From Aquabacterium humicola (lineage in GTDB: Bacteria; Pseudomonadota; Gammaproteobacteria; Burkholderiales; Burkholderiaceae_C), in assembly GCF_030167915.1 (NCBI RefSeq), contig NZ_JARGNB010000001.1, forward strand, positions 806,001 through 870,000: DNA of 64,000 bases. The letters run 5' to 3'. Shown here one piece after another: positions 15,126-45,167 of the stretch (its first letter is position 1; every line of letters starts with the position of its first letter). Under the pieces are notes generated by a model. The model had not been told where the DNA came from, did not search any database, and worked only from the letters and a program-made list of their open reading frames with translations. The translations under genes were made by a program, and so were the position numbers.

Positions 15126-15896
15126 CTAGGCCTCGAGCCGGGTGCACGGCGCCACGGCGTCGGGCAACCGGCCGGCGATGATCATGCCGAGCACCGCCTC
15201 CTCGTCCACGTCCTTCGTGCGGTAGGTGCCGATGGTGCGGCCGTTCTTCATCACGCACAGCCGGTCGCTGAGCGCGAAGACGTCGGGCATGTCGTGCGAG
15301 ATCAGGATGATCCCGACGCCCTGGGCCTGCAGCGTGCGCACAAGGTCGTGCACCATGCGCGTCTCCTCCGGGCCGAGCGCGGCGCAGGGTTCGTCCATGA
15401 TCAGCACGCGGGCGTTGAAGTACAGCGCGCGTGAGATCGCCACCACCTGCCGCTGCCCGCCGGAGAGGGCCCGCACCGGCACGCGGATGTTCCGGAAGTT
15501 CGGGTTCAGCTTGCGGAACACCGCGCGCGCGGCGGCTTCCATCGCGTAGTCGTCCAGCGTGCCCCAGCGCGTGCGGATCTCGCGGCCGAGGAAGAGGTTG
15601 GCCACCGCATCGAGGTTGTCGGCCAGCGCCAGCGTCTGGTAGATGGTCTCGATGCCCAGCGCCTGCGCCTGCACCGGCGTGCGGATGTGCACCGGCCGGC
15701 CGTCGACGCGGATCTCGCCGGCGTCGTGGCCGCAGGCGCCGGCCAGGATCTTCATCAGCGTGGACTTGCCGGCGCCGTTGTGGCCCAGCAGCGCCAGCAC
15801 CTCGCCGGGGTGCACGGCCAGGCTCGCGCCCTGCACCGCCTGCACGCCGCCGAAGGCCTTGTCGATGCCCGTCATGCTGACCAGCGGCGCGCTCAT
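15126..15896 (-). CDS. xylG: D-xylose-type ABC transporter ATP-binding protein, single domain
   Basis: A 256-residue ATPase with one nucleotide-binding domain: GHNGAGKST (about residues 38-46), [12 protein letters not shown] after the Q loop, signature LSGGQRQ, and [13 protein letters not shown] as Walker B/D-loop. The Cys after DEP replaces the usual Thr and is unlikely to matter. E. coli XylG has two domains; single-domain partners of XylF/XylH are common in other proteobacteria. It overlaps xylH by 4 bases (ATGA) and is the last gene of the - strand operon, so D-xylose released from xyloglucan is the expected cargo. Confidence 0.88.
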
Positions 15897-17074
15897 GCCA
15901 CCCGCTCCCCGGTCGCGCGCCGGAACAGCACGTCGAAGACGACGGCGACGATCAGCACCTGGCCGACGATCACCATGCGCCAGCCGATGTCCACGTCGAG
16001 CAGCAGCAGACCGCCCTCGAGGAACTGGATGATCAGCGCGCCCAGCACCGTGCCCAGCACCGTGCCGCTGCCGCCCGACAGCGCGACGCCGCCGATCACT
16101 GCCGCGGCGATCACGTAGAGCTCCTGGTTGGTGCCGAGCGAGTTGGTGCCGGCGTTGAGCCGCGCCACCGCGACGATCGCCGCGACGGTGACCAGCACCG
16201 CCAGCAGCATGAAGAGCTGCAGCATCACCCGGCGCACCGGGATGCCCACCAGCCGCGCCGCTTCCGGGTTGCCGCCGATCGCATAGACATAACGTCCGAA
16301 GCGCGTGCGGTTGACGAGGAACGAGACCGCGCCGACGACCGCGGCCCAGATCAGCACCGGCACCGGAATGCCCTGCCCCTGCGGCTTGTCGCCGATGCGG
16401 TAGGCGCCCATGGCGGCGGCGAAGCCGAGCGCCGCGATGCAGAAGAGACCGGTGGCGATGACGTCGAACCAGAGCGGCCGCGGCGTCACGCCGTGCGCCC
16501 GCTGCTGGCGCCGCCGCTGCGCCGTGCGCGCGACCAGCCACAGCGACAGCAGCCCCGCGAGCACCCCGCTGGGCAGCGGTCCGATCGCGCCGTCGAGCCC
16601 GCCGCCGAGCATCAGGAACCACGGGTCGGTGATCGGCTGCGTCTTGCCCGAGGCGACGAGGAAGGCCGCGCCGCGCAGCGACATCAGGCCGCCGAGCGTC
16701 ACCACGAACGAGGCCACGCCCAGCCCCGCCACCAGCCAGCCCTGGTACACGCCGACCAGCAGCGCCACCGCCAGCCCGGCCAGGCAGGCGGGCACCGGAT
16801 GCCAGCCCTTGGTGTACATCAGGAAGGCGATCAGCACGCCGACCAGCCCCAGCGCCGAGCCCACCGACAGGTCGATGTGCCGCGCGACGATCACCAGCGC
16901 CATCGCCGCGGCCATGATGCCCACCACCGCCGTCTGCTGCGCGATGTTGTAGAGGTTCTCCGGCGTGAGGAACTGCCCCGTCAGCGCGTGAAAGGCCAGG
17001 CCCAGCGCGCCCAGCACCGCGGCCATGATGAGCAGCCGCAGGTCGAGCGCACTGAGCTGCAATCGGCTCAGCAT
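15893..17074 (-). CDS. xylH: D-xylose-type ABC transporter permease
   Basis: A 393-residue inner-membrane permease, the longer form typical of XylH, with about ten hydrophobic segments. The [16 protein letters not shown] loop is near residue 60 and the [12 protein letters not shown] coupling region is near residue 268. A hydrophilic RRRQQR stretch near residue 180 is probably a cytoplasmic loop. Its ATG shares one base with the xylF stop (TGATG) and its stop overlaps the xylG start, so the three genes are translationally coupled. It works with XylF and XylG in D-xylose import. Confidence 0.9.
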
Positions 17075-18096
17075 CACTTGCAGGCGGCCGGCGCATCGGC
17101 CGCGTTGACGCCCTTGCACAGCTCGGCCTTGCCGATGTGCCCGGCCTTGATGACGACGTCGAGGTTGGCGCGCGTGATCGGCACCGCCTTCAGGAACATT
17201 GCGTCCATCGTCAGCTTCTTCTCGCCGCCGGACCACTTGGTGGCGCCGGCCACCGGCTTGCCGGCGGCCATCTGCAGCGCGGCCTTGGCGGCCTCGCGGC
17301 CGAGGTCGCGCGCGTCCTTCCACACTGACACCGTCTGCGTGCCCAGCGCCACGCGGTTCAGCGCCGCATGGTCGCCGTCCTGGCCCGAGACCGGCACGCC
17401 CTTGAGGCCGCGCGCGGACAGCGCCGCGATCACGCCGCCGGCGGTGCCGTCGTTGCTGGCGACCACGGCATCCACCTTGCCGCCGGCGCGCGTGAGGATC
17501 TGCTCCATGTTGCGCTGCGCCACCTCGGGCTTCCAACCTTCGGTGTACTCCTCGCCGACGATCTTCACGTCGCCCTTCCTGATCGCCGCCTCCAGCACCT
17601 CCTGCTGGCCGGCGCGCAGGAAGTCGGCGTTGGGGTCGGTCGGCGAGCCCTTGATCATCACGTACTGGCCCTTCGGCTTCGCCGCGAAGACGCCGCGCGC
17701 CTGCATGCGCCCCACCTCCTTGTTGTCGAAGGTGATGTAGAAGACGCCGGGCGCCTCGATCAGGCGGTCGTAGGCGATGACCGGGATGTTGCGTGCCTTC
17801 GCCTTGGCGATGGCCGGCTGGATCGCGTCCTTGTCCATCGCCAGCACGATCAGCACCTTGGCGCCCTTGGCGATCAGGCTGTCGATGTCACCCAGCTGCT
17901 TTTCCGGCGAGCCGCCGGCATCCGCGCTGACGTAGCTGGCGCCGGCCTTGACCAGCTCGTCCTTGATGGCCTTCTCGTCGGTCTTCCAGCGCTCTTCCTG
18001 GAAGTTGGACCAGCTCACGCCGACCGTCTGGGCCTGGGCGCCGAAGGCCAGGCCGGCGAGCGTCGCGGCCAGCAAGTGCTTGGTGGGGGTCTTCAT
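17074..18096 (-). CDS. xylF: Periplasmic D-xylose-binding protein
   Basis: A 340-residue periplasmic binding protein; ATG 18096 follows AGGAG and a signal peptide with cleavage near AQA-Q at about residue 22. It closely follows recalled XylF sequence: [53 protein letters not shown] and [14 protein letters not shown]. These cover the hinge and both ligand-facing lobes. Xylose is the side-chain sugar removed by the GH31 enzyme encoded at 33033, so its position at the end of the receptor operon is functionally sensible. Two cysteines near the C terminus could form a disulfide. Confidence 0.9.
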
Positions 18097-18181
18097 GGCA
18101 GATCTCCTGCAGAGGGACAAGGGAAGCGCCGACGCGCAGCGTGAGCCGCGCGCCGCGAGGGGTCAAGGGGGACGAACCGCG

Positions 18182-21100
18182 TCACCGCGCGGCCGCCCGC
18201 GCCGCTGCGGGCACGGCGGGCGCGGCCTCGCTGTCGTCCAGCGAGCGCAGGTACTCGACCAGCGCGTCGCGGTCCGCTGCGGACAGCGCGCGCGTGGCGC
18301 CATGCCCGCCCGCGATCACGTCGCGCAATGTCGCGGCCTGCCCGTTGTGGAAGAAGGCGCGTGCGTTCCACAGCCCGTACAGCGTGGGCGTGTCGAAGCC
18401 GATGCCGGCCAGCGCCTGCCCGATGCCGCGGCCGGACGAGGGCTGGATCGTGCCGACGTCATGCCGCAGGCCGTCGCGCATCGTCGCGCCGGCGTGGCAG
18501 CTCGCGCAGCGCAGCGAGTCGAAGAGCTGCTGTCCGCGCAGCGCGTGCACGCTCAGGCGGCCGTCCGCCAGCCGCGCCGGGCTGCGGCCGTGGCGCGACA
18601 GCGAGCCAAGGTAGGCCGCGAGGTCGTCGAGGTCGCGGCTGAGCCCCGCCTTCGGCGCACCCAGCGGGTCCGACGTGGCCTCGAAATCGGCGTTGCTCAT
18701 GAAGCCCGCGCCGCCGAAGGCCTGGCGGATGTCGTGCTCGAAGTCCTGCAGCTCGTCGAAGTTCGCGCTCCAGTGCACGCGGCCATGGCCCAGGCCCTGG
18801 CGGCCGAGCAGGCTGGGGGTGCGGCGCAGCCCCTCGCCGCGCTGCGTGAAGTCCCACACCATGCCGTCGTCGCCGCCATCGGCATGGCAGCTGGCGCAGG
18901 ACATGTAGTTGTCGCGGCTCATGCGCCGGTCCGCCGCGTTGTAGAACAGCCGCTTGCCGCGCAGCACGGCCTCGGCCAGCGGCTCGGTCGCCACCGCGGC
19001 CACCGTGGCCAGCGGCCTCGCAGCGAAGGACTGGCCCGACAGCACCACCGCGATGTCGTACGCCGCCACCGAGCGGCCGAGGAAGTTGTTGACGAACAGG
19101 CGCTGGCGCCCGGCGTCGACGTGCAGGCCGTGCGGTGCCCGGTCGGTCGTGATCTCGCCGCGCACCGAGCGGTCGAAGGCATCGACGATCGCGACGCGGT
19201 TGCCCTCCATCTGCGCGACGAACAGGTAGTCGCCGTTCGGCGACCAGGCCGCCGCACGCGCCGGCGCCCGGTCGTTGAAGTCGAGCTGCGCGTCGAACAG
19301 CTCCACCGCCGCCGGCTGCAACGCGATCTGCGAGACGATCGAGCGCACGGTGGTGTCGTGCTCGAGCGGGCGGCCGTCGCGGAACAGGCCACCGGCGATG
19401 TTGTCCTTCTTCGAGGGCAGCGCCGCCCGCCGGCCGTCCGGCGAGATGAGCACCTGGTGCAGGTAGTTCGGCACCCCGCGGGCGCGGTTCTCGGCGTCGA
19501 CGGTCGTCCTGTCGACCCGCAGCCGGAGGGTCTGCCGCAGCGCCAGCGTCCGGCCCTGGGCACCCAGCGACACGCGATGCACCTGGCCGCCGTCCATGCG
19601 CGAGCGGAAGCGGGTCACCAGGGCCTGCGCCGAATCGGCGGTGACGGCGATGCCGCGCACATCGTCGGTCAGCGCCAGCAGTGCGCGCATCGCCCCGCTG
19701 GCGGGGTCGAAGCTCATCAGGCTCGAACGGCCCTCGAGCGTGACGAGGCCCGTGCGCCCGTCCGGCGTGAACACGATGCCGTGCGGCGCGCTGCCATAGG
19801 GCAGCGGAACGCTGGTGGACAGCTGGCCATCCGCCGCGCGCAGCGCGACCAGCTTGTCCTCGCCCTGCACGGCCACCCAGACACGGCCGTCCGGTGCCAC
19901 GGCCAGCGTGCGCGGTTCGGTGCCGACGCGCGTCTCCCAGGTCTTGGCGAGCGTGGTCGCGTCGATCGCGGTGACCGTGCCGCTGTCCGGGTTGACGCTG
20001 TAGACCCGCGTCGCATCGCCCGTGATGTTGCTGCTGTGCGTGGGCGCCAGCGCGGTGGGCGGATGGATGACCGTGCGGCGGAACGCATGCGTCGACTGCG
20101 CGCCGTCGGCGGTGCGCACCGTCAGCACCACGGTGTGGTGGCCGGGCGCCTTGAAGCGGTGCGTGGCCCGCAGCGTGGCGGAGAAGGCGGTGGGCGGCGA
20201 ACCGTCGCCGAAGCTCCAGCGGTACCGCGCGCCCGGGCGTGCCAGCGCGACCGGATCGAAGACTGCCGGCGCGTTCACGTGCAGCGTCTGCGCGTCGGCG
20301 GGGTCGGCGATGCGCATCGCCTGCTGGCCGCCGGGCCGTGGCGCGCGTGCGGCGGCCTCGACCTGCGGAGCTGTCGTGAACTGCGCGCTGAACGCCTTGG
20401 TGATGGCATTGCCGGCGTAGTCGCGCAGGCCGCCGGCCGGCACGAGCACCTCGTACGTGGTGTCCGGCGACAGCGGCACGGCCGGCGCGAAGTTGACCAG
20501 CCCCAGCTGCACGCTGTAGGTGCCGGCCAGCGGCGCGCCGCCGCGCGGACGCACGATGAAGCTGGACGCGCCGATGCTCTCCGGCAGGATGTTGTCGGAC
20601 AGCGCGATGCCGATGCGCGAGCTCGTCGCCTGGTGGCGCGCGCCGTCGCGCGGCGAGACCTGTCGCACCTGCGGCGGCGTGGTGTCCGGCCGGCGGTCGT
20701 GCACGATGAAGCCGCTGCCGTTGCCGTGGTCGTTGCCGATGAACAGCAGGTTGCCCATCGGCGTCACCTGCCCGTGGTCGGAGTGGCGCGCCTGATCGGA
20801 GCCTTCGGGGAACAGGCCGCCCACGCCGACCTGGACGTGGTGCAGCGGATCGCTCACGTCCACCTTGTGGACCTTTTCCTGCGCACCCTGGAATACGAAC
20901 GCATCCTGCGTGGCGCAGTACAGCTGCTCGTCCGCCTGCAGCCGCTTGTCCTGCGCGACGAAGCGCGCCGGATCGCTCAGGTCGTAGCTGAACATGCGCG
21001 CCCCGCGGCCACGCACCGCCCCGTAGAGCGTGCGGCCGTCGAAGCAGGTGGCGTAGTAGAACGGCAGCGCACCGACGGTGTCGAGCAGCCGCGGGTCCAA

Positions 21101-21949
21101 CGGATCGGAGATGTCCAGGCTGGCCAGGCCCGAGGCCGCTTCCATCGAGCTCAGCACCAGGTGGTTGCCCAGCGTGAAGACGGGCCCGATCCGGAAGCCG
21201 CCGAGCTCGCCGGTGGGCACCGGGTTCGGCCGGCCCTCGCCGCGCTCGGCGAGCACCGGCTTGGTGGGGTCGCGCGCGTCGACGATGTACAGGCCGTCTT
21301 CGGCGGACGCGACGTAGACGTAGGGCGCCTGCCACCACAGCTGCCAGGTGACGTTGGAGTAGTCGCCGCCGTGCACCGTCGGCAGCGCGAGCTTGCTGAC
21401 CTGGCGGATGTCATCGATGTCGGTGAAGTCCCAGAACTCGATGCCGCGGGTGCTGGGCACGACGATGAGCGTGCGCCCGTCGATGGTCGCCTGCCCGATG
21501 GCGTGCGGCTCGCGGAACTCCGCGGTGCGGCCGGTGGGCTCGTAGATCCGCTTCACCAGCCGCGGGCTTCGCGGGTTGGAGACGTCGTAGACGAGGAAAC
21601 CGCCGGGCGGGTAGCCGCTGTCGGGGGCGAACATCACCACGAACCAGCCGTTGACCATCAGGCCGACGTTGGTGCCGAAGTCCTTGCGCCCCGGGTGGCG
21701 GAACGGCATCTCGCCATCGCCCGCTCCGGGCGCGCTCTCGGTCTTGATCATCGAGAGCGGCCCGAACAGCTCGGCCTCGGTGTACGCGAGGTTGCCCAGG
21801 CCGGGCCCTTGCGCGGCCTGGCCGCCGGCCCGCGGCGCGACCGGGCTCGTGGCGGAGAGCGCCGCGTGGGCCAGCACCAGCGCCAGCACGCTCGCCAGCG
21901 TGGCGGCCGCCGTCCGGATGTGCCTCATCGATCGGACCTTCGTCAGCAT
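18182..21949 (-). CDS. Exported multidomain protein: LVIVD propeller, Ig-like, PKD, second beta-propeller and di-heme cytochrome c
   Basis: A 1255-residue exported protein; ATG 21949 follows GAGGTGA and starts 4 bases after the GH9 stop. In order: signal peptide (about 1-33); LVIVD-type repeats (about 55-410; units such as GLYIVDARDPTKPVLAE and GLASLDISDPLDPRLLD); an SbsA-like Ig domain (about 425-525); a PKD domain (about 545-635; YRWSFGDGSPP); a YVTN/YncE-like propeller (about 640-965); and a cytochrome c-peroxidase/MauG-like end with two CxxCH sites, C1018-H1022 and C1148-H1152. Two covalent hemes imply periplasmic or surface electron transfer. Substrate and partner are unknown. Its place between GH9 and xylF suggests a role in polysaccharide attack or redox chemistry. 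Confidence 0.85.
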   Translation of the reverse strand: MLTKVRSMRHIRTAAATLASVLALVLAHAALSATSPVAPRAGGQAAQGPGLGNLAYTEAELFGPLSMIKTESAPGAGDGEMPFRHPGRKDFGTNVGLMVNGWFVVMFAPDSGYPPGGFLVYDVSNPRSPRLVKRIYEPTGRTAEFREPHAIGQATIDGRTLIVVPSTRGIEFWDFTDIDDIRQVSKLALPTVHGGDYSNVTWQLWWQAPYVYVASAEDGLYIVDARDPTKPVLAERGEGRPNPVPTGELGGFRIGPVFTLGNHLVLSSMEAASGLASLDISDPLDPRLLDTVGALPFYYATCFDGRTLYGAVRGRGARMFSYDLSDPARFVAQDKRLQADEQLYCATQDAFVFQGAQEKVHKVDVSDPLHHVQVGVGGLFPEGSDQARHSDHGQVTPMGNLLFIGNDHGNGSGFIVHDRRPDTTPPQVRQVSPRDGARHQATSSRIGIALSDNILPESIGASSFIVRPRGGAPLAGTYSVQLGLVNFAPAVPLSPDTTYEVLVPAGGLRDYAGNAITKAFSAQFTTAPQVEAAARAPRPGGQQAMRIADPADAQTLHVNAPAVFDPVALARPGARYRWSFGDGSPPTAFSATLRATHRFKAPGHHTVVLTVRTADGAQSTHAFRRTVIHPPTALAPTHSSNITGDATRVYSVNPDSGTVTAIDATTLAKTWETRVGTEPRTLAVAPDGRVWVAVQGEDKLVALRAADGQLSTSVPLPYGSAPHGIVFTPDGRTGLVTLEGRSSLMSFDPASGAMRALLALTDDVRGIAVTADSAQALVTRFRSRMDGGQVHRVSLGAQGRTLALRQTLRLRVDRTTVDAENRARGVPNYLHQVLISPDGRRAALPSKKDNIAGGLFRDGRPLEHDTTVRSIVSQIALQPAAVELFDAQLDFNDRAPARAAAWSPNGDYLFVAQMEGNRVAIVDAFDRSVRGEITTDRAPHGLHVDAGRQRLFVNNFLGRSVAAYDIAVVLSGQSFAARPLATVAAVATEPLAEAVLRGKRLFYNAADRRMSRDNYMSCASCHADGGDDGMVWDFTQRGEGLRRTPSLLGRQGLGHGRVHWSANFDELQDFEHDIRQAFGGAGFMSNADFEATSDPLGAPKAGLSRDLDDLAAYLGSLSRHGRSPARLADGRLSVHALRGQQLFDSLRCASCHAGATMRDGLRHDVGTIQPSSGRGIGQALAGIGFDTPTLYGLWNARAFFHNGQAATLRDVIAGGHGATRALSAADRDALVEYLRSLDDSEAAPAVPAAARAAAR

Positions 21950-21953
21950 CGGC

Positions 21954-24125
21954 TCACCTCACGAAACGCGCCAGCAGCCGGATATAGGCCGACTGGTAGC
22001 CGTTGGAGTTCTCGCTGATCGGCCAGGAGTTCAGCGGCCAGCCGTCGTTGAAATCGAGGTAGGACTTCTGCGCCGGCTGACCGTAGGGCGGCGTCGGACG
22101 GCTCGAACCGCAGGCCGTCGAGACACCGGGGCAGCGCGAGTCCCAGTCCCACTGGTTGTAGTTCGGGCCGCCGGTGACGATGCCCGGTGCGGGGCCGTAG
22201 GTCGAGGTCTTGGCGCTGTCCCACAACGCGCTGCCGTCGCTGAACCAGGAGTGGAAGATCTGGTTGACCGAGTTCTCGGCGCCGAAGCTCACCATGTTCG
22301 TGAGGTAGGCCTTGCCGAGCGGGTTCACGCCGTGCAGGTAATGCAGGTAGCCGGCGGCGGCGGCGGACACCTGGTCCGCGGTGTGGCGGCTGATGCCGTA
22401 GAAGGTCTCGGCCGCGAACAACGTGCCGCCCAGCGCCTTCACCGCATTGCTGCCCCAGGTGTAGTCGGTGATGTAGGCGCGGTACGGGTCGCGCTGCGAG
22501 TCGACCGCGCCCCAGCCGCCGTAGTCGCTGCGCCCCCACAGGTCGAGGAAGCGCGTGCGGATGTTGCTCGCCACGCCGGCGGTGGCACCGGGCAGCGCCG
22601 CGTAGTACAGCAGCTGGTGCGCATGGCCCGCGTTGAAGGCCGACAGGTACCACTGCGCGAACATCGGCGTGATGGTGTAGCTGGCATCGACGACGTCGCG
22701 GTAGCTCGCTTCACCGGTGGCCGCGAACAGCTTGATGGCCGCGTACAGGCGCAGCTCGGCACGGCCGGCGTCGTCGGTCTCCTGCTGGCCGGCGCCCAGG
22801 CCGGCGGTGCCGCTGGCCTCGTCGTTGTTGCGGAAGACGACGTTGGGGTTGGCCGCCGCCCAGGCCCAGGCGCGCCGCGCCCGCGCCAGCAGGTCGGCAG
22901 CGTAGGTGTTCATCGCCGCGTTGTTGAGGCTGCCGAAGACCTTGGCGCCGTGCGCATAGGCCGCGGCCGCGGCCAGCGTGGCGGAAGTGCTGGCATCGCC
23001 GTAATAACTCGGACCGGTGGCGGCCGACGGCGGGCTGGCATGCGACACGCCCTGGATGGACAGCACCGAGCCGTCGCTGTTCTGCATGCGCACCAGCCAG
23101 TCCAGGCCCCACTTCACTTCGTCGAGCAGGTCGGGCAGGCCGTTGTACGACTCGGGCAGGTTGAAGTCGTCGGTCCAGACGCCGGGGTTCTGGCTGTAGG
23201 CCTCCAGCAGGTCCTGCACGTAGCCGGCCGTCCAGCTGGTGTACTTGTTGAAGTCGCCCGCGTCGTACCAGCCGCCGCGCAGGTCGCGCGCGGTGGCGGC
23301 GTTGTTCCTGTCGAGGTAGCGGCGCGCCTGCGTGTCCTGCCCGGCCTTCAGGTGGCTGGCGCCATCGGCCCAGCCCGCGCCGGCCTGTGCCGCGTTCTTG
23401 GCCTGGCCCGCGCGCTGGTAGAAGAAGGTCCGCACCGCCTGCACCAGCACGTTGCGGTAGAGGTTGTCGCCGATCTCGAAGCGCGCGGAGCGCTGGTTGC
23501 GGTCGACGTCGACGATCTCGTAGGTGCCGGGCGCGGTGACCTGGCTGAAGTCGAAGCTCCACGCCTGGTCGCCCGACGACTCGTCGATCTGCCGGTCCTT
23601 CCACTCCTGGGGCCACCACTCGTAGGCCACCGCGCCGGTGGCCGCGTTCACCACCTGCAGCCGGCCGGGCCAGTAGAACTCGCTGCTGTCGTAGCCGACG
23701 CGCGGCCAGCGCAGCACCGCCACCTTCTTCATCGTCGGCAGGTAGCCGAACTGGTCGACCAGGATGTACTTGCCGGCGTTGGCGGCCATCGCCGGCCAGA
23801 CGGTGAAGTTGTACGCCTGCACCGTGCGGGCGCCGCAGCTGTTGGTATAGGTGGCCGTGGCGGTGCAGCTCGCGGTGAGCTTGAGCGTCTGTTCGCGCGA
23901 CGAGCCCGAGGCCCCGCAGCCGCTCCACGACCAGCTGCCGCTGATCGGCTGCGGCCCGAGCACGACGGTGGACCCGGCGTTCAGCGTGGCCGAGGACTTC
24001 ACGGCCCAGGCATTGGTGCCGTTGAGGTTGAGGTACGGGGTGACGGCGCTGGGCTGGCACGTCTGCGCCCAGGCAGGCGCGCTCAGGGCTGCCAACAAAA
24101 GCAGCACGCTCTTCCTGATCTTCAC
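21954..24125 (-). CDS. Secreted glycoside hydrolase family 9 (endoglucanase/xyloglucanase)
   Basis: A 723-residue exported enzyme starting at GTG 24125, six bases after GGAG, with a signal peptide ending near AWA-Q at about residue 21. An N-terminal ~90-residue Cys-containing module precedes a CelD-type Ig-like domain (ILVDQFGYLPTMKKVAVLR) and the GH9 (alpha/alpha)6 catalytic domain. The catalytic Asp pair is D288 and D291 in GWYDAGDFNKY; the proton donor is probably E705 in SENSNGYQSAYI. It would cut beta-1,4-glucan backbones outside the inner membrane. It follows the halogenase by 58 bases. The variant final motif compared with the second GH9 (TNEVAINWN) suggests a distinct subfamily. Confidence 0.88.
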   Translation of the reverse strand: MKIRKSVLLLLAALSAPAWAQTCQPSAVTPYLNLNGTNAWAVKSSATLNAGSTVVLGPQPISGSWSWSGCGASGSSREQTLKLTASCTATATYTNSCGARTVQAYNFTVWPAMAANAGKYILVDQFGYLPTMKKVAVLRWPRVGYDSSEFYWPGRLQVVNAATGAVAYEWWPQEWKDRQIDESSGDQAWSFDFSQVTAPGTYEIVDVDRNQRSARFEIGDNLYRNVLVQAVRTFFYQRAGQAKNAAQAGAGWADGASHLKAGQDTQARRYLDRNNAATARDLRGGWYDAGDFNKYTSWTAGYVQDLLEAYSQNPGVWTDDFNLPESYNGLPDLLDEVKWGLDWLVRMQNSDGSVLSIQGVSHASPPSAATGPSYYGDASTSATLAAAAAYAHGAKVFGSLNNAAMNTYAADLLARARRAWAWAAANPNVVFRNNDEASGTAGLGAGQQETDDAGRAELRLYAAIKLFAATGEASYRDVVDASYTITPMFAQWYLSAFNAGHAHQLLYYAALPGATAGVASNIRTRFLDLWGRSDYGGWGAVDSQRDPYRAYITDYTWGSNAVKALGGTLFAAETFYGISRHTADQVSAAAAGYLHYLHGVNPLGKAYLTNMVSFGAENSVNQIFHSWFSDGSALWDSAKTSTYGPAPGIVTGGPNYNQWDWDSRCPGVSTACGSSRPTPPYGQPAQKSYLDFNDGWPLNSWPISENSNGYQSAYIRLLARFVR

Positions 24126-24183
24126 GGGAGTCTCCGTTGTATTGCAGGTCGGCCCTTGCCGGGATGGCTGCGGCCGGTCCCCG

Positions 24184-38300: not shown

Positions 38301-38350
38301 AGCCCTCGGGCCTGACCGGCCGCGTATTCGCCGAGGCCGGGACGCCATGA
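35324..38350 (+). CDS. Exported GH2 beta-galactosidase-like enzyme with an in-frame repeat insertion
   Basis: A 1008-residue GH2 protein, exported through a long signal (hydrophobic core LLGIAVLLLAAAGPAGA). Domains in order: sugar-binding jelly roll (ASQGYRARGFGWYRRYF), Ig-like domain, TIM barrel, then C-terminal beta domains. The acid/base is E451 in IFNEEPLQ and the nucleophile is E526 in LSSEDTS. It should remove beta-galactose from xyloglucan side chains in the periplasm. Between QAHWV and VVKVLPHWNW there is a ~28-residue Pro/Gly/Ser/Arg-rich insert where relatives have a few residues. It begins 2 bases after the GH31 stop and overlaps the next GH2 gene as ATGA. Beta-glucuronidase or beta-mannosidase activity is less likely. 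Confidence 0.87.
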   Translation: MRRPAPCARAPMPWRALQVLSTFGALLGIAVLLLAAAGPAGAAGAAGRERLSLDAGWLFHRGDVPAQPVKGHGASYHQAKAGGAVGAGAPDFDDSGWRRLDLPHDWAIENPLDRNENASQGYRARGFGWYRRYFQLPEADRGRHIELQFDGIATHSTVWVNGIVVDRNFSGYNGRSIDVTPFVRYGEDVNSIAVRVDAQAQEGWWYEGAGIYRHAWLVKRDSLHIATDGVHANPVQKNGRWTVPVAVDVRSADRGPRDAVLKVRLIDPDGTPVARGSRRVRVAALATQTATLDLAVPRPQMWSVNDPRLYKVEAALRGAAAGPRELDRAELHTGFRTIRFDAERGFFLNGQPLKLHGVCIHQDHAGVGVAVPAAIWEFRLRRLKQMGVNAVRFAHNAVAPEVMDLTDRLGLLVMNENRNFSASAEVTAQLEWLVRRDRNRPSVILWSIFNEEPLQSTEQGLEMARRMVATIKRLDPTRPVTAGMHDGLFAERNAAQALDVVGINYQTWAYDRYHREHPGRPLLSSEDTSAFMTRGAWASDQPAQVLAGYDEEPSSWGATHRESWKQIASRPFLAGAFVWSGIDYHGEPTPFEWPSASTFFGAIDLTGAPKAAFHIRQAHWVKPPPDGGKHPPSPGKGGESSRERPFADSGRTVVKVLPHWNWAGREGQPVKVMVASNAPRVRLLLNGSVVGEQDVDPIDMVSFQVPYAPGRLEAVALGAGAQAGRELGRDVVETTGAPVRLVLTPDRAMSDRAMPGTDGRAVLAGDGRDAIAVMVSAVDAQGRAVPTANLPVRFDVAGAGRLIGVGNGDPNSHESSKAPERSLFNGLAQVILQSRRNSQGTLTLRASAPGLQGAELALPVQPVAPVAAVPVAEAVTRVDGWRISPPQAERPDPNQVLAGNDMNSWGWGTPPIRQTPEPASWRAYRANLKLRADRNDGRGRLVFREIVGQAEVWADGVKLGEKTTFEASPLTVPLVAGSGWRTLTVLVRAQPGQPSGLTGRVFAEAGTP
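37186..37275 (+). repeat. Palindrome-rich insertion inside the GH2 gene
   Basis: This in-frame stretch has arms ACGGCGG (37200-37206) and CCGCCGT (37214-37220), plus GAGTC (37238-37242) and GACTC (37265-37269). It encodes a low-complexity peptide at a normally short linker. It looks like a small REP-like palindromic element that landed in frame; a second copy was not found in this window. Confidence 0.45.
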
Positions 38351-40389
38351 GGGGGCTGCCTCTCGTGCGCGCGGCACTGCTCGTCGCCGGCCTGCTGGCA
38401 GCTGGCGCGGCGTCCGCGATGCGCACCACCACGCTGCTGGACGGCCCCTGGCGCTTCCAGCGCGCAGATTCAGCCGGCGCGGCCGAGCCGGCGTTCGACG
38501 ACACCGCCTGGCAGCGCGTGACGCTGCCGCACACCTGGAACGCGCCGGACGGCGAGGTGGGCGGCGCCTACCATCGCGGCGCCGGCTGGTACCGCCGGAT
38601 CATCGACCGGCCCGCCGGCGCCACGCCCGGCCGGCGCCAGTTCCTGGAGTTCGACGGCGCGACGCTGGCCGCCGACGTGTGGGTCAACGGCCGCCTCGCC
38701 GGCCGGCATGAAGGCGGCTACGCCCGCTTCCGCTTCGACATCACGCCGCTGCTGAAGGCCGGGCGCAACGTGCTCGCCGTGCGGGTCGACAACAGCCCCC
38801 TGCCGCACGTCGCGCCGCTGGGCGGCGACTTCACCGTCTTCGGCGGCCTGGTGCGGCCGGTGCGCCTGGTCGAGACCGACAGCGCGCACATCGAGCTGCT
38901 GGACCACGGCAGCCCGGGCGTCAAGGTGGACACCGAAGCGCTGGTCGCCGCCGCGGCCCGGCTGAGCGTGCAGGTCGACCTGCGCAACCACGGTGCCGCG
39001 GCCGAACGCGAGCTGCTGCTCACCTTGCGTGATGGCGAGGGCCAGGTGGTGCTGCGCCATCGCCAGCCGGTGCAGCTGGCCGCCACCGCCGCGCAGCGCG
39101 CCAGCGTGCTGCTGCACGTGCCCAAGCCGCGCCTGTGGCAGGGCGTGCACGACCCGCACCTTTATCGCCTGCAGGTCGAGCTGCTGGATGGCAGGCGCGT
39201 GGGCGACAGCGTGCAGCTGCCGCTCGGCCTGCGCCGCTTCGATGTCGATCCGCAGCGCGGCTTCCTGCTCAACGGCCGGCCCTACCCGCTCCACGGCGTC
39301 AACTACTTCCACGCCGGCCGGCCCGGCCGCGGCGTGGCGGTGGGCGATGCGGAGGTCGACGAGGACCTGCGCATCCTGAAGGACTTGGGCCTCACCGCCC
39401 TGCGCCTGGTGCACTACCAGCACCCGCCGCGCGCCTACGAGCGTGCCGACGAGCTGGGCCTGGTGCTGTGGACCGAGATCCCGTTGAACGCGGCGATGCA
39501 GCAGACGCCGGCCTTCCGCGACAACCTGCACCAGCAGCTGCGCGAGCTGGTGCGGCAGAACCGCCACCATGCGTCGGTGGCGGTCTGGGGCGTCGGCAAC
39601 GAGGTCTACCGTGCCGACGAGCCGATCACGAGGCTGCTGGGCGAGCTGCATGCGCTGGCCAAGCAGGAAGACCCGTCGCGCCTGACCAGCTACGCCCACT
39701 GCTGCGCGCCCGACGACCACCCGATGGCGCTGCAGACCGACCTCGCGTCGTACAACCGCTACTGGGGCTGGTACGACGGGCAGTTCGCCGACATCGGCCC
39801 GTGGGCCGACCGCCTGCACGCGAAGCTGCCGGCCAGGCCGATCGGCCTGGGCGAATACGGCGCCGGCGCCAGCGTGCTGCAGCAGCAGGACCCGCCGCAG
39901 CGCCCCGAGCCCGGCGGCCGCTGGCACCCCGAGCAGTACCAGGCGCTGTTCCACGAGACCTACGCGGCCGAGATCTCGCGCCGGCCCTTCTTCTGGGGCC
40001 GCTTCGTCTGGCTGGGCTTCGACCATGCCTCGGCCGGACGCCACGAGGGCGACGCCACCGGCATCAACGACAAGGGCCTCGTCACCTACGACCGGCGCTA
40101 CCGCAAGGACGCGTACTTTCTCTACCAGGCGCATTGGTCGAAAGAGCCGATGGTGCACATCGCCAGCCGCCGCCTGAGCCCGCGCCCGGCGGGCAGCGTG
40201 ACGCTGAAGGCCTACAGCAATGCCCGCCGCCTGACGCTGGAAGTGAGCGGCCGCGTGGTCGGCAGCGCGGACGTGATCGACCGCATCGCCACCTGGCCCG
40301 GCGTGGTGCTGGCGCCGGGTCGGCAGCAGATCGTCGTGCGCGGCGACCACGGCGCCGGCGACAGCGTCGCGTGGGAGGTCACGCCATGA
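38347..40389 (+). CDS. Exported GH2 glycosidase (second copy, shorter; beta-galactosidase-like)
   Basis: A 680-residue GH2 enzyme with a signal peptide (cleavage near ASA-M at about residue 24). The sandwich, Ig-like and TIM-barrel domains are complete, with acid/base E419 in GVGNEVY and nucleophile E503 in GLGEYGAG; the barrel strand LHGVNYFHAGRPG is also clear. It lacks the extra C-terminal domains of the preceding GH2 and is not a close duplicate of it. The pair may act on different galactose linkages or on galactose versus another beta-sugar such as arabinopyranose. The ATG overlaps the upstream stop as ATGA, and its own stop overlaps the deacetylase start in the same way. Confidence 0.85.
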   Translation: MRGLPLVRAALLVAGLLAAGAASAMRTTTLLDGPWRFQRADSAGAAEPAFDDTAWQRVTLPHTWNAPDGEVGGAYHRGAGWYRRIIDRPAGATPGRRQFLEFDGATLAADVWVNGRLAGRHEGGYARFRFDITPLLKAGRNVLAVRVDNSPLPHVAPLGGDFTVFGGLVRPVRLVETDSAHIELLDHGSPGVKVDTEALVAAAARLSVQVDLRNHGAAAERELLLTLRDGEGQVVLRHRQPVQLAATAAQRASVLLHVPKPRLWQGVHDPHLYRLQVELLDGRRVGDSVQLPLGLRRFDVDPQRGFLLNGRPYPLHGVNYFHAGRPGRGVAVGDAEVDEDLRILKDLGLTALRLVHYQHPPRAYERADELGLVLWTEIPLNAAMQQTPAFRDNLHQQLRELVRQNRHHASVAVWGVGNEVYRADEPITRLLGELHALAKQEDPSRLTSYAHCCAPDDHPMALQTDLASYNRYWGWYDGQFADIGPWADRLHAKLPARPIGLGEYGAGASVLQQQDPPQRPEPGGRWHPEQYQALFHETYAAEISRRPFFWGRFVWLGFDHASAGRHEGDATGINDKGLVTYDRRYRKDAYFLYQAHWSKEPMVHIASRRLSPRPAGSVTLKAYSNARRLTLEVSGRVVGSADVIDRIATWPGVVLAPGRQQIVVRGDHGAGDSVAWEVTP

Positions 40390-41189
40390 CGGCCGGCCAC
40401 GCCACCCGCATGCCGGCGCCTCGGTCGCGCAGGCCGCTGGCATCGACGCTGGCGATGGCCACGCTGCTGGCGCTCGCCGGCTGCGCCGGGCCGCTCGCGT
40501 TGCCGCCGCCCGCCGCGACGGGCTGCGACGCCACGGCGCTCGGCACCCACCGCACGCTGGTGCTGCCGCGCGAGGGCGCGGCCTACGGCCGTGTCCAGCA
40601 CGGCCCGCTGCCGCTGGGCCCGCGCGAGGTGGTGCTCACCTTCGACGACGGCCCGCGGCCCGAGGCCACGCCGCAGGTGCTGCAGGCGCTGAAGGCCGAG
40701 TGCGTGCGCGCCACCTTCTTCCTGATCGGCGAGCCGCTGCTGCGCCACCCCGAGCTCGCGCGTCGCATCCAGGCCGAGGGCCACACGGTGGCGATGCACA
40801 GCTTTCGCCACCAGAGCCTGCCCAGCCTGTCGCCGCCGGACCAGCGGGCCGACCTGCAGGCGATGCAGCAAGCCCACCGCAGCGTGCTGGGCGGCGACCC
40901 GCCGGCCTGGCGCTACCCGTACCTTCACGAGTCCGACGCCCTGCGCGAGAGGCTTCGCGAAGAACGCATCACGGTCCTGTCCACCGACGTCGGCATCGAA
41001 GACTGGCAGCCGGGGCAGTCGCCCGCGGTGCTCGCCGACCGCCTGATCGCCCGCCTGCGCGAGCGCGGCGGTGGCATCGTGCTGCTGCACGACGCGATGG
41101 ACCAGACCGCCGCCGCGATGCCCCTGCTGCTGCGCCGCCTGAAGGACGACGGCTGGCGCGTCGTGCACCTGCAGTGGTCGCCGCGCTGA
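40386..41189 (+). CDS. Polysaccharide deacetylase family lipoprotein (NodB/CE4 fold)
   Basis: A 267-residue protein with a lipobox LAGC in its signal region, so probably membrane-anchored. NodB motifs are TFDDGP (D86-D87), HSFRH (H138 and H142, metal ligands), RYPY in place of the usual RxPY/RPPY motif, and LLHD near the C terminus. These are the metal-dependent deacetylase elements of CE4 enzymes. In a xyloglucan operon, removal of O-acetyl groups from side-chain galactose or from another acetylated glycan is a reasonable role, but CE4 enzymes also act on chitin-like and peptidoglycan substrates. It overlaps both neighbours (ATGA upstream, TGATG downstream). Confidence 0.8.
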   Translation: MTAGHATRMPAPRSRRPLASTLAMATLLALAGCAGPLALPPPAATGCDATALGTHRTLVLPREGAAYGRVQHGPLPLGPREVVLTFDDGPRPEATPQVLQALKAECVRATFFLIGEPLLRHPELARRIQAEGHTVAMHSFRHQSLPSLSPPDQRADLQAMQQAHRSVLGGDPPAWRYPYLHESDALRERLREERITVLSTDVGIEDWQPGQSPAVLADRLIARLRERGGGIVLLHDAMDQTAAAMPLLLRRLKDDGWRVVHLQWSPR

Positions 41190-43021
41190 TGCGCCCCCTC
41201 GTCTTCATGCCCATGTCGATCCCCGTGCTGAACACCCCTGTCCGCCACGCCGCCGCGTTGGCCCTCGTCTTCGTGCTGCAGGCCTGCGCCCAGGCACCGG
41301 GCACCTCGTCCTCGCCGGCCGCCACGACGCCCGGCTCGGCGCCCGGCGCGGCCACGCCCGCCATCCAGGTCAACCAGGTCGGCTTCCTGCCGGGCGCGGC
41401 GAAATGGGCCGTCGTGCCGGCCGCCGTGCCGACCGTCGTACCGGCCGAGTTCGCGCTGATCGATGCCGCCTCCGGGCGCGAGGTCTTCCGCGGTCCGCTC
41501 GCCGCCGCCGCGCATTGGGAGCCCGCGCAGGAAGCGCTGCGACTGGCCGACTTCTCCGGCTTCCGCATCGCCGGCGAGTACCGCCTGCGCGTCGAGGGCC
41601 TGCCCGAGTCGGCGCGCTTCGTGATCGACGCGCGGGCCTACGAGCGGGTGAACGCGGCCGCGCTGCGGGCCTTCTTCTTCAACCGCGCCGGCATCGAGCT
41701 GAAGCCCGAACACGCCGGCCCCTGGGCCCGGCCGGCCGGCCACCCCGACACCCGCGTGCTGGTGCATGCCTCGGCCGCCGGACCGGTCCGGCCCGCCGGC
41801 ACGGTGATCAGCGCGCCCAAGGGCTGGTACGACGCCGGCGACTACAACAAGTACATCGTCAATTCCGGCATCACGATGTACACGCTGCTCGCCGCCTGGG
41901 AACACTTCCCCGCTCACTTCGAACGTCAGCGCCTGGACATCCCCGAGAGCGGCGATGCGCTGCCCGACCTGCTCGACGAGGTGCTGTGGAACCTCGAGTG
42001 GATGCTGGCGATGCAGGACCCCGCCGACGGCGGCGTCTACCACAAGCTCACCGACAAGGGCTTCGACGGCGTGGTGATGCCGCACCAGGCGAGGAACGAG
42101 CGTTACGTCGTGATGAAGACGACGGCCGCGACGCTGGACTTCGCGGCCGTGGCCGCACAGGCCAGCCGGGTCTTCGCGGCCTTCGAGGCGCAACGCCCCG
42201 GCCTGTCGGCGCGCCTGCTGGCCGCGGCGAAGGCGGCCTGGGGCTGGGCGCATGCGCACCCGGCGGTGGTCTACCAGCAGCCCGCCGACATCCACACCGG
42301 CGGCTACGACGACAGCAAGCTCGGCGACGAGTTCGCCTGGGCCGCGGCCGAGCTGTACGTGACGACGCGCGACGACGCCTACCTCGCCGCGCTGAAGGCC
42401 CGGGCCCAGCCGGCCGGCGTGCCCGGCTGGGGCGACGTCGGCAGCCTGGCCTGGATCACGCTGGCGCACCACCGCGAGCGCCTGACGCCCGCGGCCGACC
42501 GCGCCGAGATCGCGCGCCAGATCACCGCGCAGGCCGGCAAGCTCGCCGCGCAGTGGCAGGCCTCGCCCTACCGCGTCGCGATGCAGCGCGACGATTTCTA
42601 CTGGGGCAGCAACGCGGTGGCGCTGAATCAGGCGTTGATGCTGGTCCAGGGTTATCGCCTGAACGGGGACCGCCGCCAGCTCGATGCCGCGCAGGCCGCG
42701 CTCGACTTCGTGCTCGGCCGCCATCCCACCGGCTACTCGATGGTCACCGGCTTCGGCGAACGCGCGCCGCGCGAGCCGCACCACCGCCCCTCCGGCGCCG
42801 ACGGCGTGACCGATCCGGTGCCGGGCTTCATCGTCGGCGGCCCTCGCCACGAGACCTCGGACGACTGCAGGCCGCTCGCCTATCCCTCGAAAGCCGCGGC
42901 CAAGGCCTGGCTCGACCGCTTCTGCAGCTACACGACGAACGAGGTGGCGATCAACTGGAACGCGCCGCTGGTCTACGTCAGCGCGGCGCTGCAGGTGCTC
43001 ACACCCGGAGCCCGACCATGA
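41189..43021 (+). CDS. GH9 endoglucanase lipoprotein (CelD-like)
   Basis: A 610-residue GH9 enzyme beginning at ATG 41189, which shares one base with the deacetylase stop. The signal ends in a lipobox (LQAC), followed by a Ser/Thr/Pro/Ala linker. An N-terminal Ig-like domain (IQVNQVGFLPGAAKWAVV) precedes the catalytic domain. Catalytic residues are D215 and D218 (GWYDAGDYNKY) and E585 (TTNEVAINWN), with the conserved His region GRHPTGYSMVTGFG. It would hydrolyse beta-1,4-glucan or xyloglucan fragments at the membrane surface. Its motifs are closer to canonical GH9 than those of the enzyme at 21954, so the two probably differ in substrate or position of attack. Confidence 0.9.
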   Translation: MRPLVFMPMSIPVLNTPVRHAAALALVFVLQACAQAPGTSSSPAATTPGSAPGAATPAIQVNQVGFLPGAAKWAVVPAAVPTVVPAEFALIDAASGREVFRGPLAAAAHWEPAQEALRLADFSGFRIAGEYRLRVEGLPESARFVIDARAYERVNAAALRAFFFNRAGIELKPEHAGPWARPAGHPDTRVLVHASAAGPVRPAGTVISAPKGWYDAGDYNKYIVNSGITMYTLLAAWEHFPAHFERQRLDIPESGDALPDLLDEVLWNLEWMLAMQDPADGGVYHKLTDKGFDGVVMPHQARNERYVVMKTTAATLDFAAVAAQASRVFAAFEAQRPGLSARLLAAAKAAWGWAHAHPAVVYQQPADIHTGGYDDSKLGDEFAWAAAELYVTTRDDAYLAALKARAQPAGVPGWGDVGSLAWITLAHHRERLTPAADRAEIARQITAQAGKLAAQWQASPYRVAMQRDDFYWGSNAVALNQALMLVQGYRLNGDRRQLDAAQAALDFVLGRHPTGYSMVTGFGERAPREPHHRPSGADGVTDPVPGFIVGGPRHETSDDCRPLAYPSKAAAKAWLDRFCSYTTNEVAINWNAPLVYVSAALQVLTPGARP

Positions 43022-44355
43022 ACACGCTCGCCGACACCGCCCGCGCCGTGGCGCCCGAGACAGCCCGCCGGCGCCACCCGCTCGCCTGGGTGCCCACGCT
43101 GTACCTGGCGATGGGCCTGCCCAACGTGATGGTCGGCGTGGTCGCCGCGATCATCTACAAGAACCTCGGCGTCTCGAACGAGGACATCGCGCTCTACACC
43201 TCGCAGATGTACCTGCCGTGGGTGCTCAAGCCGCTGTGGGCGCCGCTGCTCGAAGCCCATCGCACCAAGCGCTGGTGGGTCATCAGCATGCAGTTCCTGA
43301 TGGCCGCCTCGCTGGGCCTGGTGGCCTTCTGCCTGCCGCTGGAAGGCTTCTTCAAGCTGTCGCTGGCGTTCTTCTGGATCACCGGCTTCGCCAGCGCCAC
43401 GCAGGACACCTGCGCCGACGGCGTGTTCATGAGCACCGTCTCGCTGAAGGACCAGGCGCGTTACTCCGGCCTGCAGGGCATGTGCTGGAACCTGGGCGCG
43501 GTGATCGGCTCGGGGCTGCTGGTCTCGTTGACCGGCTGGCTGCACGAGCGGCAGGGACTGCCCTGGGTGCAGTGCTGGATGATCGTGGTGTGCATGGCCG
43601 CGGCCACGATGGCGCTGTTCGGCCTGTGGCACCTGCGCGTGCTGCCGCCAGGCGGGCCGCCCGCGATGGCCAGCGGCGCGGGCGCGGGCGCGGGCAGCTT
43701 CGCCGCGATGCGCGAGGCCTGGGTCAGCTTCTTTGCCAAGCCGCAGATCTGGATGATGCTGGCGGTCATCTTCTTCTACCGCTTCGGCGAAGGCTTCATC
43801 GAGAAGTTCGGGCCGCTGTTCCTGCTCGACCCGCGCGCGGCCGGCGGGCTGGGCCTGGACAACGCGGCGCTCGGCCACATCAACGGCACGGTGGGCACGA
43901 TCGCCTTCATCGCCGGCGCGTTCCTCGGCGGCTTCCTGGTGGCCCGGCGCACGCTGCCGCGCTCGTTCTTCGTGCTGGCGCTGGTGCTGAACGTGCCGCA
44001 CCTGACCTACTTCTACCTGTCCACGGCACTGCCGCAGGACCCGCTGTGGATCGGCGCCATCGTCGCGGCCGAGAAGTTCGGCTTCGGCATGGGCTCGGTG
44101 GGCCACATGCTGTACATGATGCAGCAGGTGGCGCCGGGCCCCTTCCGCATGGCGCACTACGCGATGGCCACCGGCGTGATGGCGCTGACCAAGTGGTCCA
44201 CCGGCACCGTCAGCGGCTGGGTGTGGAACGCGGTCGGGCATGACTACGCGAGCTTCTTCGGCCTGGTGCTGCTGTTCTCGGTGCCGCCGGTGATCCTGGC
44301 GTGGCTGGCTCCGTTCCCGCATGCGGCCGAGCCGGACGCGCCGGCGCGCTCCTGA
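43018..44355 (+). CDS. AmpG-like MFS transporter (probable oligosaccharide importer)
   Basis: A 445-residue protein with about twelve membrane segments and no signal peptide. It resembles the AmpG/PAT branch of the major facilitator superfamily (WVPTLYLAMGLPNVMVGVV at the start; QDTCADGVFM after helix 4; FGFGMGSVGHMLYMM in helix 10). AmpG relatives move muropeptides or oligosaccharides. Between a periplasmic GH9/GH2 set and a cytoplasmic alpha-xylosidase, inward transport of xyloglucan oligosaccharides is the best inference. The start overlaps the GH9 stop as ATGA. A Gly/Ala-rich central loop (GAGAGAGS, about residue 220) separates the two halves. Confidence 0.87.
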   Translation: MNTLADTARAVAPETARRRHPLAWVPTLYLAMGLPNVMVGVVAAIIYKNLGVSNEDIALYTSQMYLPWVLKPLWAPLLEAHRTKRWWVISMQFLMAASLGLVAFCLPLEGFFKLSLAFFWITGFASATQDTCADGVFMSTVSLKDQARYSGLQGMCWNLGAVIGSGLLVSLTGWLHERQGLPWVQCWMIVVCMAAATMALFGLWHLRVLPPGGPPAMASGAGAGAGSFAAMREAWVSFFAKPQIWMMLAVIFFYRFGEGFIEKFGPLFLLDPRAAGGLGLDNAALGHINGTVGTIAFIAGAFLGGFLVARRTLPRSFFVLALVLNVPHLTYFYLSTALPQDPLWIGAIVAAEKFGFGMGSVGHMLYMMQQVAPGPFRMAHYAMATGVMALTKWSTGTVSGWVWNAVGHDYASFFGLVLLFSVPPVILAWLAPFPHAAEPDAPARS

Positions 44356-44381
44356 GTCGCGGTCGTCCCGGCCCGCTGTCG

Positions 44382-45167
44382 ATGGACCTGCCGGGCGCAA
44401 TCTCGATAACACCCGAAGCGTGCGGGTGGCAGGTCACGCGGCTGGAACACGAACGCGTGCTGCGCAACGTCGGCGCCGCGGCGCTGCTGCCCGTCGAGCC
44501 GGCGCCGGGCCGCGGCAACGGCCGCGCGGTGCTGGTCGTGCCGGGCGGCGGCTTTCTCTTCGTCGCCGTCGAGAACGAAGGTCTGCCAGTCGCCCGGCGC
44601 CTGGCCAAGGCGGGCTACACCGCTTTCGTGCTCGTCTACCGCACCCGGCCCACGACCGACGACGACCGCAGCTTCGAGCAGGGATTGCCGCGAGCCTGGC
44701 AGGACTTGGCAGAACGCATCCAGGCCGACGGCGACCTCGCGCTGCATGGCCCGGCGCTGGACGACACCCGCACGGCGATGCGCTGGCTGCGCGCGCACGC
44801 CGCGAGCTTCGGCTTCGATCCCGCGCGGCTCGGCCTGCTGGGCTTCTCGGCCGGCGCGCGCTGCGGCCGCGCGCTGGTGGCGCAGGCCACGGCCGAGGAG
44901 ATGCCCGACAGCCTGGCACTGGTCTACGGCGGATTCGCCGCCACCGTGCCGCGCGCGCCGGTGCCGCCGCTGTTCCTGGCCCAGGCTGCCGACGACCCGC
45001 TGTTCGACAGCGGGCAGCTGGCCATCCTCGACGACTGGCGCCGCGCCGGCCAGCGTGCCGAACTGCACCTGTACGAACGCGGTGGCCACGGCTTCGGCCT
45101 GCGCAAGCAAGGTGCCACCAGCGACCACTGGTTCGATGCCTACCGCGCCTGGCTGGATCGACAGTGA
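44382..45167 (+). CDS. Alpha/beta-hydrolase esterase (acetyl-xylan-esterase-like), cytoplasmic
   Basis: A 261-residue alpha/beta hydrolase without a signal. The oxyanion segment is VVPGGGFLF, the nucleophile is S156 in GFSAGA, the acid is probably D204 (ADDPLF) and the base is H236 (GGHGFG). These match small carbohydrate acetylesterases. In this operon it would remove acetyl groups from imported xyloglucan oligosaccharides, complementing the exported deacetylase. The ATG at 44382 is preferred over an upstream in-frame start inside the MFS gene, although the ribosome site is weak. It is the last gene of the operon that begins with GH31. Confidence 0.82.
   Translation: MDLPGAISITPEACGWQVTRLEHERVLRNVGAAALLPVEPAPGRGNGRAVLVVPGGGFLFVAVENEGLPVARRLAKAGYTAFVLVYRTRPTTDDDRSFEQGLPRAWQDLAERIQADGDLALHGPALDDTRTAMRWLRAHAASFGFDPARLGLLGFSAGARCGRALVAQATAEEMPDSLALVYGGFAATVPRAPVPPLFLAQAADDPLFDSGQLAILDDWRRAGQRAELHLYERGGHGFGLRKQGATSDHWFDAYRAWLDRQ

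Follow-up and report, generated by a model that had tools for sequence, protein, structure and literature searches.

A 64,000-nt window of the Aquabacterium humicola genome (contig NZ_JARGNB010000001.1, positions 806,001 to 870,000) carries at window positions 15126-45167 a set of genes that very probably forms a xyloglucan utilization cluster, in which genes of the xyloglucan locus usual in this bacterial family appear regrouped with a module of glycoside hydrolase (GH) families 2 and 9. Genes were identified by codon-based gene calls and Pfam and NCBIfam profile scans of the window proteins, and leaders and signal peptides, from which localization is predicted, were judged by eye across the cluster. 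The genes lie in two divergent runs whose members overlap or are spaced by at most 88 nt, with GH74, GH31, GH2, GH2, deacetylase, GH9, major facilitator superfamily (MFS) transporter and esterase genes in the plus arm, and lipoprotein, TonB receptor, halogenase, GH9, di-haem protein, XylF, XylH and XylG genes in the minus arm. All genes that a preliminary description of this DNA had named in two divergent units were present, the Ig-like part of the lipoprotein being recognized through its predicted fold, but two genes were missing from that list, encoding a halogenase (24184-25659) and a di-haem protein (18182-21949).

The same description had called this a xyloglucan locus, which agrees with our finding of a GH74 and a YicI-type GH31 beside a sugar-type TonB receptor. 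The GH74 endo-xyloglucanase (30710-32944, plus strand) matches solved xyloglucanases over its full length (best 6p2m, E = 8e-133); its codon-based start is 30803, and an open frame from a TTG at 30710 takes in a leader resembling those of the twin-arginine translocation (Tat) pathway. Residues D46 and D475, which we take to be the catalytic aspartate pair, are invariant in 9 of 9 aligned sequences. The GH31 protein (33033-35321, plus strand) scored 1155.8 bits against the NCBIfam alpha-xylosidase profile (cut-off 606) and matched E. coli YicI with an E-value of 1.5e-278; no signal peptide was seen on inspection by eye. The first GH2 enzyme, GH2a (35357-38350, plus strand), is a GalA-type beta-galactosidase (1014 bits, cut-off 900) with a signal-like leader, and the TonB-dependent receptor (TBDR; 25699-28818, minus strand) scored 513.2 bits against TIGR01782 (cut-off 310). 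An endo-xyloglucanase, a GH31 alpha-xylosidase, a beta-galactosidase and a TonB-dependent transporter, all expected of a xyloglucan locus, are thus encoded within the interval, and a fucosidase is found only in the flanks (GH95, GH29).

Genome labels used below are G000 for the genome under study, G143 for one of the same genus and other G numbers for other sampled genomes of the same family. The preliminary description had proposed an independently assembled locus with GH2 in the place of GH35 and with neither an alpha-L-fucosidase nor a beta-glucosidase in the window, a reading under which fucose and the glucose backbone would go unprocessed. Consistent with this, no GH35, GH95, GH29, GH1 or GH3 was found among the genes scanned in 15126-45167, and the block of GH2a, GH2b, deacetylase and GH9b is a module also present in G156. 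We nevertheless consider independent assembly very unlikely: the families missing from the interval occur in the adjoining flanks, and the window GH74, GH31 and MFS proteins are orthologues of those in the family's usual locus. The left flank (G000:C1:766001-804107, in a source genome of 7.39 Mb) holds GH95, a GH35-like gene, GH1, GH43, xylA, xylB, GH74, a TonB receptor and a halogenase 2-40 kb from the window. Profiles there identified an SASA (CE20-like) esterase, GH51, GH43, GH95, a GDSL esterase, GH1, the GH35-like gene and an xylA-like gene; a GPH transporter, xylB, an ROK regulator, GH27, GH97 and GH127 were identified by eye from the sequences. This flank also encodes an exported GH31-family protein, below equivalog cut-offs, and its GH74 shares 39-40% identity with that of the window. 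It reads as a second xyloglucan/arabinan arm with its own GH74, TonB receptor and halogenase. On the right are GH29 and GH5 (by profile) and GH3, with GH29 and GH3 at 10-15 kb from the window. Alpha-L-fucosidase genes outside the window stand about 20 kb to the left (GH95) and about 10 kb to the right (GH29). Because the flanks hold GH35-like, GH95, GH1, GH29 and GH3 genes, the claimed absences are window-edge effects, and GH35, GH95 and GH1 were rejected as genuine absences once the flanks had been examined. The earlier statement that fucosidase and beta-glucosidase are lacking is correct for the scanned genes but not for the surroundings (GH95 and GH1 to the left, GH29 and GH3 to the right), and the replacement of GH35 by GH2 is not supported, given the GH35-like gene within 40 kb left of the window. 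More generally, absences should not be inferred at the edge of a window.

Gene order in relatives also speaks against independent assembly, as elsewhere in the family other genera have the GH74, GH31 and MFS orthologues together with GH35, GH95, GH1, xylA and xylB, a layout resembling that described for Xanthomonas (passages of PMC8245568). Judged from similarity to the left-flank genes of G000, the order ROK-xylB-xylA-TBDR-GH35-GH74-GH95-u2-GH1-GPH was found in G144, G206, G238 and G218 and was partly visible, at contig ends, in G223 and G156. GH31 and/or MFS genes are close to this canonical block in G144, G206, G238, G223 and G218, and the family orthologues are 55-60% (GH74), 78-81% (GH31) and 74-81% (MFS) identical to the window proteins. 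The nearest named GH74 loci that share this gene order were those of Roseateles chitinivorans, where the canonical order surrounds a GH74 with 57% identity, and of a Burkholderiales bin. In G000 and G143 the plus arm unites GH74, GH31 and MFS with GH2a, GH2b, deacetylase and GH9b, the remaining arm lies nearby on the same contig, and no second GH74 was detected in G143 at the search threshold used. The GH2-GH2-deacetylase-GH9 block recurs in another genus at G156:C27, with identities of 63%, 73%, 64% and 68%, and there adjoins a di-haem homologue (75%). From these comparisons, genes of the family's usual xyloglucan locus appear to be regrouped here with a GH2/GH9 module, the rearrangement presumably having run in that direction.

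GH2b, a beta-glycosidase (38347-40389, plus strand; GH2 domains over the Pfam cut-off), overlaps the stop of GH2a, shows a signal-like stretch once its start is set to 38347, and matched no NCBIfam equivalog above that profile's own cut-off. The polysaccharide deacetylase (40455-41189, plus strand; PF01522, E = 3.2e-31) and the glucanase GH9b (41174-43021, plus strand; Pfam) have lipoprotein-like leaders, with LQAC in the latter. The MFS transporter (43018-44355, plus strand) is AmpG-like, with 132.6 bits against TIGR00901, under the cut-off of 350, and the run closes with an alpha/beta-hydrolase esterase (44382-45167, plus strand; profile scan), which has an uncertain start and no leader that could be seen.

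Several observations weigh against a regrouped xyloglucan cluster. GH74 occurred in 15 of 250 sampled family genomes and, within the genus, in 2 of 21 (counting the genome under study; 12 of these 21 passed the completeness filter), which makes the locus accessory. Both GH9 enzymes and GH2b might target other glucans. The GH35-like protein scored 499.7 against an NCBIfam cut-off of 500, and in Pfam its GH35 score of 31.9 bits (cut-off 27) stands against 36.6 for GH42. A cytosolic GH31 step would depart from Xanthomonas, in which oligosaccharide breakdown is assigned to the periplasm (passages of PMC8245568). A broader beta-glucan or hemicellulose cluster, acting on cellulose, mixed-linkage glucan or arabinoxylan with xyloglucan as one substrate among several, would accommodate the two GH9 enzymes as well as the GH5, GH51, GH43, GH39 and XylFHG genes located within the interval or close by, and would fit a window-type halogenase in R. 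chitinivorans (68% identity) that lies by a receptor with GH51, GH2 and GH3 matches. We regard this as fairly unlikely, since GH74 and YicI-type GH31 in one operon-like run indicate xyloglucan.

If the cluster does serve xyloglucan utilization, the exported GH74 and the two GH9 enzymes would cleave the polysaccharide at or outside the cell surface, where the lipoprotein may hold its chains, and the TonB receptor would take in the oligosaccharides. The first GH9 glucanase, in the minus arm (21954-24125, minus strand; Pfam), has a signal-like leader. In the periplasm the GH2 beta-galactosidase and the deacetylase would trim the oligosaccharides, helped by the GH95, GH35-like enzyme and exported GH31 of the neighboring arm, and the MFS transporter would move the products into the cytosol. 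There the leaderless YicI-type GH31 would release xylose and GH1 would release glucose. Free xylose would be recovered by XylF (17074-18096; TIGR02634, 406.6 bits, cut-off 389.55), the permease XylH (15893-17074) and the single-domain ATPase XylG (15126-15896), all on the minus strand and the last two assigned by codon call and profile scan. XylA and XylB, a DGOK-aldolase route and glucokinase would then channel the sugars to metabolism; a KDPG/KHG-type aldolase, DGOK kinase and glucokinase (49988-52571, minus strand; profile scan) probably handle galactose and glucose.

The di-haem protein (minus strand) has 1255 aa and combines LVIVD, Big_5, PKD and propeller regions with a di-haem MauG-type domain, as found by profile scans. 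It is missing from the corresponding place in G143, which has 88 nt there instead, and 25 of 250 family genomes, counting the own one, have a homologue, mostly within longer open frames. Among the surroundings of five homologue genomes, only that in G156 adjoins the GH2-GH2-deacetylase-GH9 block; in the other four, nothing above 80 bits matched except the di-haem protein itself or sugar ATP-binding cassette (ABC) queries. Its absence from G143 and its presence in 25 of 250 genomes make it a weak candidate for a core part of the locus.

The kind of locus is expected and its form rearranged; the association of receptor, halogenase and lipoprotein is the part worth following. The flavin-dependent halogenase (minus strand; PF04820, E = 2.4e-161), with no signal peptide seen, is of the BrvH/Xcc4156 type. 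Its closest solved relatives, 6y1w (Xcc4156) and 6frl (BrvH), match at E of about 1e-115 and share the same lysine, glutamate and WxWxIP; Lys78, Glu335 and WxWxIP are the counterparts of K83, E349 and the motif in the available account of BrvH. Lysine, glutamate and WxWxIP are kept in all 21 distinct halogenases that aligned over more than 400 residues in the DNA regions examined, and GxGxxG is kept in 20, the remaining one not being covered.

To survey this clade, 30 family genomes were chosen, 15 with and 15 without a GH74 match. Halogenases occurred in 13 of them, nine having GH74 and four lacking it, at 73 places (75 matches, with three pieces of one gene merged). The same 13 genomes held at least 114 sugar-type TonB receptors over the cut-off, with at most 35 candidates scored per genome. 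Within 10 kb of a listed receptor lay 51 of the 73 halogenases, and 34 lay within 2 kb, compared with 3.8 and 1.3 expected under uniform placement, a null model that ignores the clustering of sugar genes; conversely, 41 of the 114 listed receptors had a halogenase within 10 kb. A second sample comprised 17 genomes picked from 80 named GH74 loci and covered Roseateles, Novosphingobium, Caulobacter, Asticcacaulis, Lysobacter, Dyella, Pinirhizobacter, Xanthomonas, Pseudoxanthomonas and Stenotrophomonas. Halogenases were found in 14 of the 17, and for at least 40 of 84 places (85 matches, two merged) a receptor among the 150 listed was no more than 10 kb away, against 4.6 expected under the same null model. 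The window halogenase belongs to a recurring receptor-halogenase association. In G030, G156 and G238, from one receptor-rich genus, the halogenase matches number 17, 13 and 10, and some of them lie in tandem.

The halogenase could still be a chance neighbor with no part in polysaccharide use. Six of the 15 GH74-bearing genomes have no such halogenase, and 22 of the 73 halogenases have no listed receptor within 10 kb; 13 of these 22 sit on contigs without a listed receptor. A halogenase was present in the flanks of only one of 80 named GH74 loci, where the flanks covered extend up to 10 kb on each side and many contigs are short, and the gene is not beside the canonical block in G218 or R. chitinivorans. 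Set against this, a halogenase stands beside the ROK-xylB-xylA-TBDR block in 6 of the 8 loci where the place is visible (G000, G143, G144, G206, G238 and G223; G156:C23 and L109 were left out of this count, their place beside the block not being visible), and both this and the proximity to receptors in the two samples, as well as the conservation of catalytic residues, argue that a chance neighbor is unlikely. We rejected the halogenase as a general part of xyloglucan loci, given its single occurrence in the flanks covered for the named GH74 loci; it tracks receptors rather than xyloglucan.

"Tryptophan halogenase" genes have been noted alongside TonB receptors in Caulobacter, Xanthomonas and Alteromonads, and the receptor-halogenase link is accordingly not claimed here as unpublished. 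Searches of the open-licence PMC literature found nothing pairing "tryptophan halogenase" with polysaccharide utilization or xyloglucan. The native substrates of BrvH/Xcc4156-type halogenases "remain unknown" (passages of PMC7336383), and these enzymes have been assayed with indole-type test substrates (passages of PMC7336383 and PMC5945002). "TonB" appears zero times in PMC7336383 and PMC8269204, the relevant passages of PMC7336383 and PMC5945002 do not mention receptor linkage of BrvH or Xcc4156, and "halogenase" was not found in the available part of PMC1790865. As a guess, the window enzyme may act on aromatic compounds that enter with plant polysaccharide.

The lipoprotein (28870-30258, minus strand) has a lipobox LAAC, predicted Ig-like domains and a C-terminal beta-rich domain. 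No Pfam or NCBIfam match was found, and no PDB sequence relative at E-values up to 1, so shared descent with the surface glycan-binding proteins (SGBPs) of Bacteroides is not shown; searches of Pfam, NCBIfam and PDB likewise gave no sequence homology to SGBP/SusD families. Six homologues were aligned, the own sequence included, the five others being 37-85% identical to it. Each of the six genes immediately precedes a TonB receptor gene of the same strand, and a halogenase stands beside the pair in five, the sixth having its receptor at a contig start. Weaker matches, for the most part confined to the Ig portion, occurred in 32 of 299 family genomes, counting the own one. An order-level search yielded 9 genomes out of 300, again counting the own one and mostly with the Ig part alone, and a class-level search with the C-terminal domain recovered no genome besides the own one (1 of 274). 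A match in G461 is on a 9.9 kb contig that gave no hits to the remaining query genes. The full-length model (pLDDT 74) gave Ig-, cadherin- and S-layer-type structural matches, and the Ig-like reading follows from this predicted fold. For the C-terminal domain, modeled from the six sequences (pLDDT 73, pTM 0.79), weak Foldseek matches were led by the flagellar sheath protein FlaA1 and a complex I assembly intermediate, followed by carbohydrate-binding module (CBM) family CBM11 (E 0.016-0.025, TM by target 0.51-0.55), and more weakly by CBM16, CBM28 and CBM4. These weak matches are suggestive of glycan binding, and the lipoprotein is a candidate surface glycan-binding protein.

It is a tentative possibility that the lipoprotein, the receptor and the halogenase work together as a single unit through which Burkholderiales take up plant polysaccharide. 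The lipoprotein, SGBP-like and with a CBM-like domain, would represent a family not yet described and would capture the glycan. The halogenase would come from a large clade linked to TonB receptors of the sugar type across several proteobacterial groups, and would act either on aromatic groups carried in with the glycan or on part of the uptake machinery itself. If true, orphan BrvH/Xcc4156-type halogenases would gain a physiological context, and the receptor link makes their cellular role testable. The lipoprotein is a candidate glycan-capture protein outside Bacteroidota, and the locus as a whole illustrates regrouping and doubling of known xyloglucan-system parts within one bacterial family.

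The divergent gap measures 544 nt up to the called GH74 start, or about 450 nt with the GH74 leader counted. In this presumed promoter region (30259-30709, no strand), the block 30556-30656 is conserved in G143 and contains, upstream of GH74, the palindrome TTCGATCGTCGAA (30564-30576), one base of which differs in G143. It was the single palindrome returned by an operator search of the window, at chance level (shuffles average 0.77 at one mismatch), and is a possible operator. Rfam scans at the gathering threshold and tRNA scans of the 64-kb window gave no matches.

Sugar-related genes continue on both sides of the interval. GH39 (12578-14131, plus strand; profile scan) and ThuA genes occupy 12578-15065 between two sugar ABC sets, and GH39 is again found close to GH74 loci in G206, G238 and Novosphingobium. 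The region 4040-12136 encodes an RhaM-type mutarotase, a mannitol dehydrogenase, a zinc alcohol dehydrogenase, an amidohydrolase-type lactonase, an aldo-keto reductase and a ribose-type ABC transporter, and looks like a set for oxidative L-fucose or L-arabinose catabolism. This set is kept beside a halogenase-receptor-lipoprotein set in G156:C33, and in R. chitinivorans (L220) a mutarotase and mannitol dehydrogenase are near a receptor and halogenase. On the other side, 45627-63494 holds a hybrid histidine kinase, a solute-binding protein, the glucokinase, DGOK and KDPG/KHG-type aldolase genes, two sugar ABC systems with ChvE, an aldehyde dehydrogenase and GguC/AraD1, and reads as galactose/arabinose catabolism adjoining the locus.

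Among characterized xyloglucan utilization loci (XyGULs), the premise of the preliminary description that GH74 loci are known from both Cellvibrio and Xanthomonas holds for Xanthomonas (passages of PMC8245568) but not for Cellvibrio. The C. japonicus XyGUL, as far as the available text of PMC4285296 describes it, encodes neither an endo-xyloglucanase nor a beta-glucosidase, so it is not a GH74 locus, and a locus without beta-glucosidase was already known from it. Its GH31, GH35, GH95 and TonB receptor resemble the present genes, the last three types being found here in the left flank and GH31 in both arms. In Bacteroides ovatus a GH2 enzyme is the xyloglucan beta-galactosidase, and GH2, a GH9 endo-xyloglucanase, GH31, a TonB-dependent transporter and surface glycan-binding proteins recall the present cluster, although there GH31 is periplasmic and SGBP-A/B are used (passages of PMC4967831). 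The Xanthomonas XyGUL contains two TonB-dependent transporters, GH74, GH31, GH35, GH95 and a CE20 esterase with xylA, xylB and an MFS gene adjacent, and the window cluster and left flank together hold genes of these same kinds (passages of PMC8245568). "Halogenase" appears zero times in PMC8245568; two Xanthomonas genomes carry such halogenases elsewhere, with two of three near a listed receptor in each. Compared with the Xanthomonas locus as described in those passages, the present system is arranged in two arms, has a leaderless YicI-type GH31 in the same run as the MFS transporter as well as an exported GH31, and additionally includes GH2/GH9 modules, the lipoprotein and halogenases.

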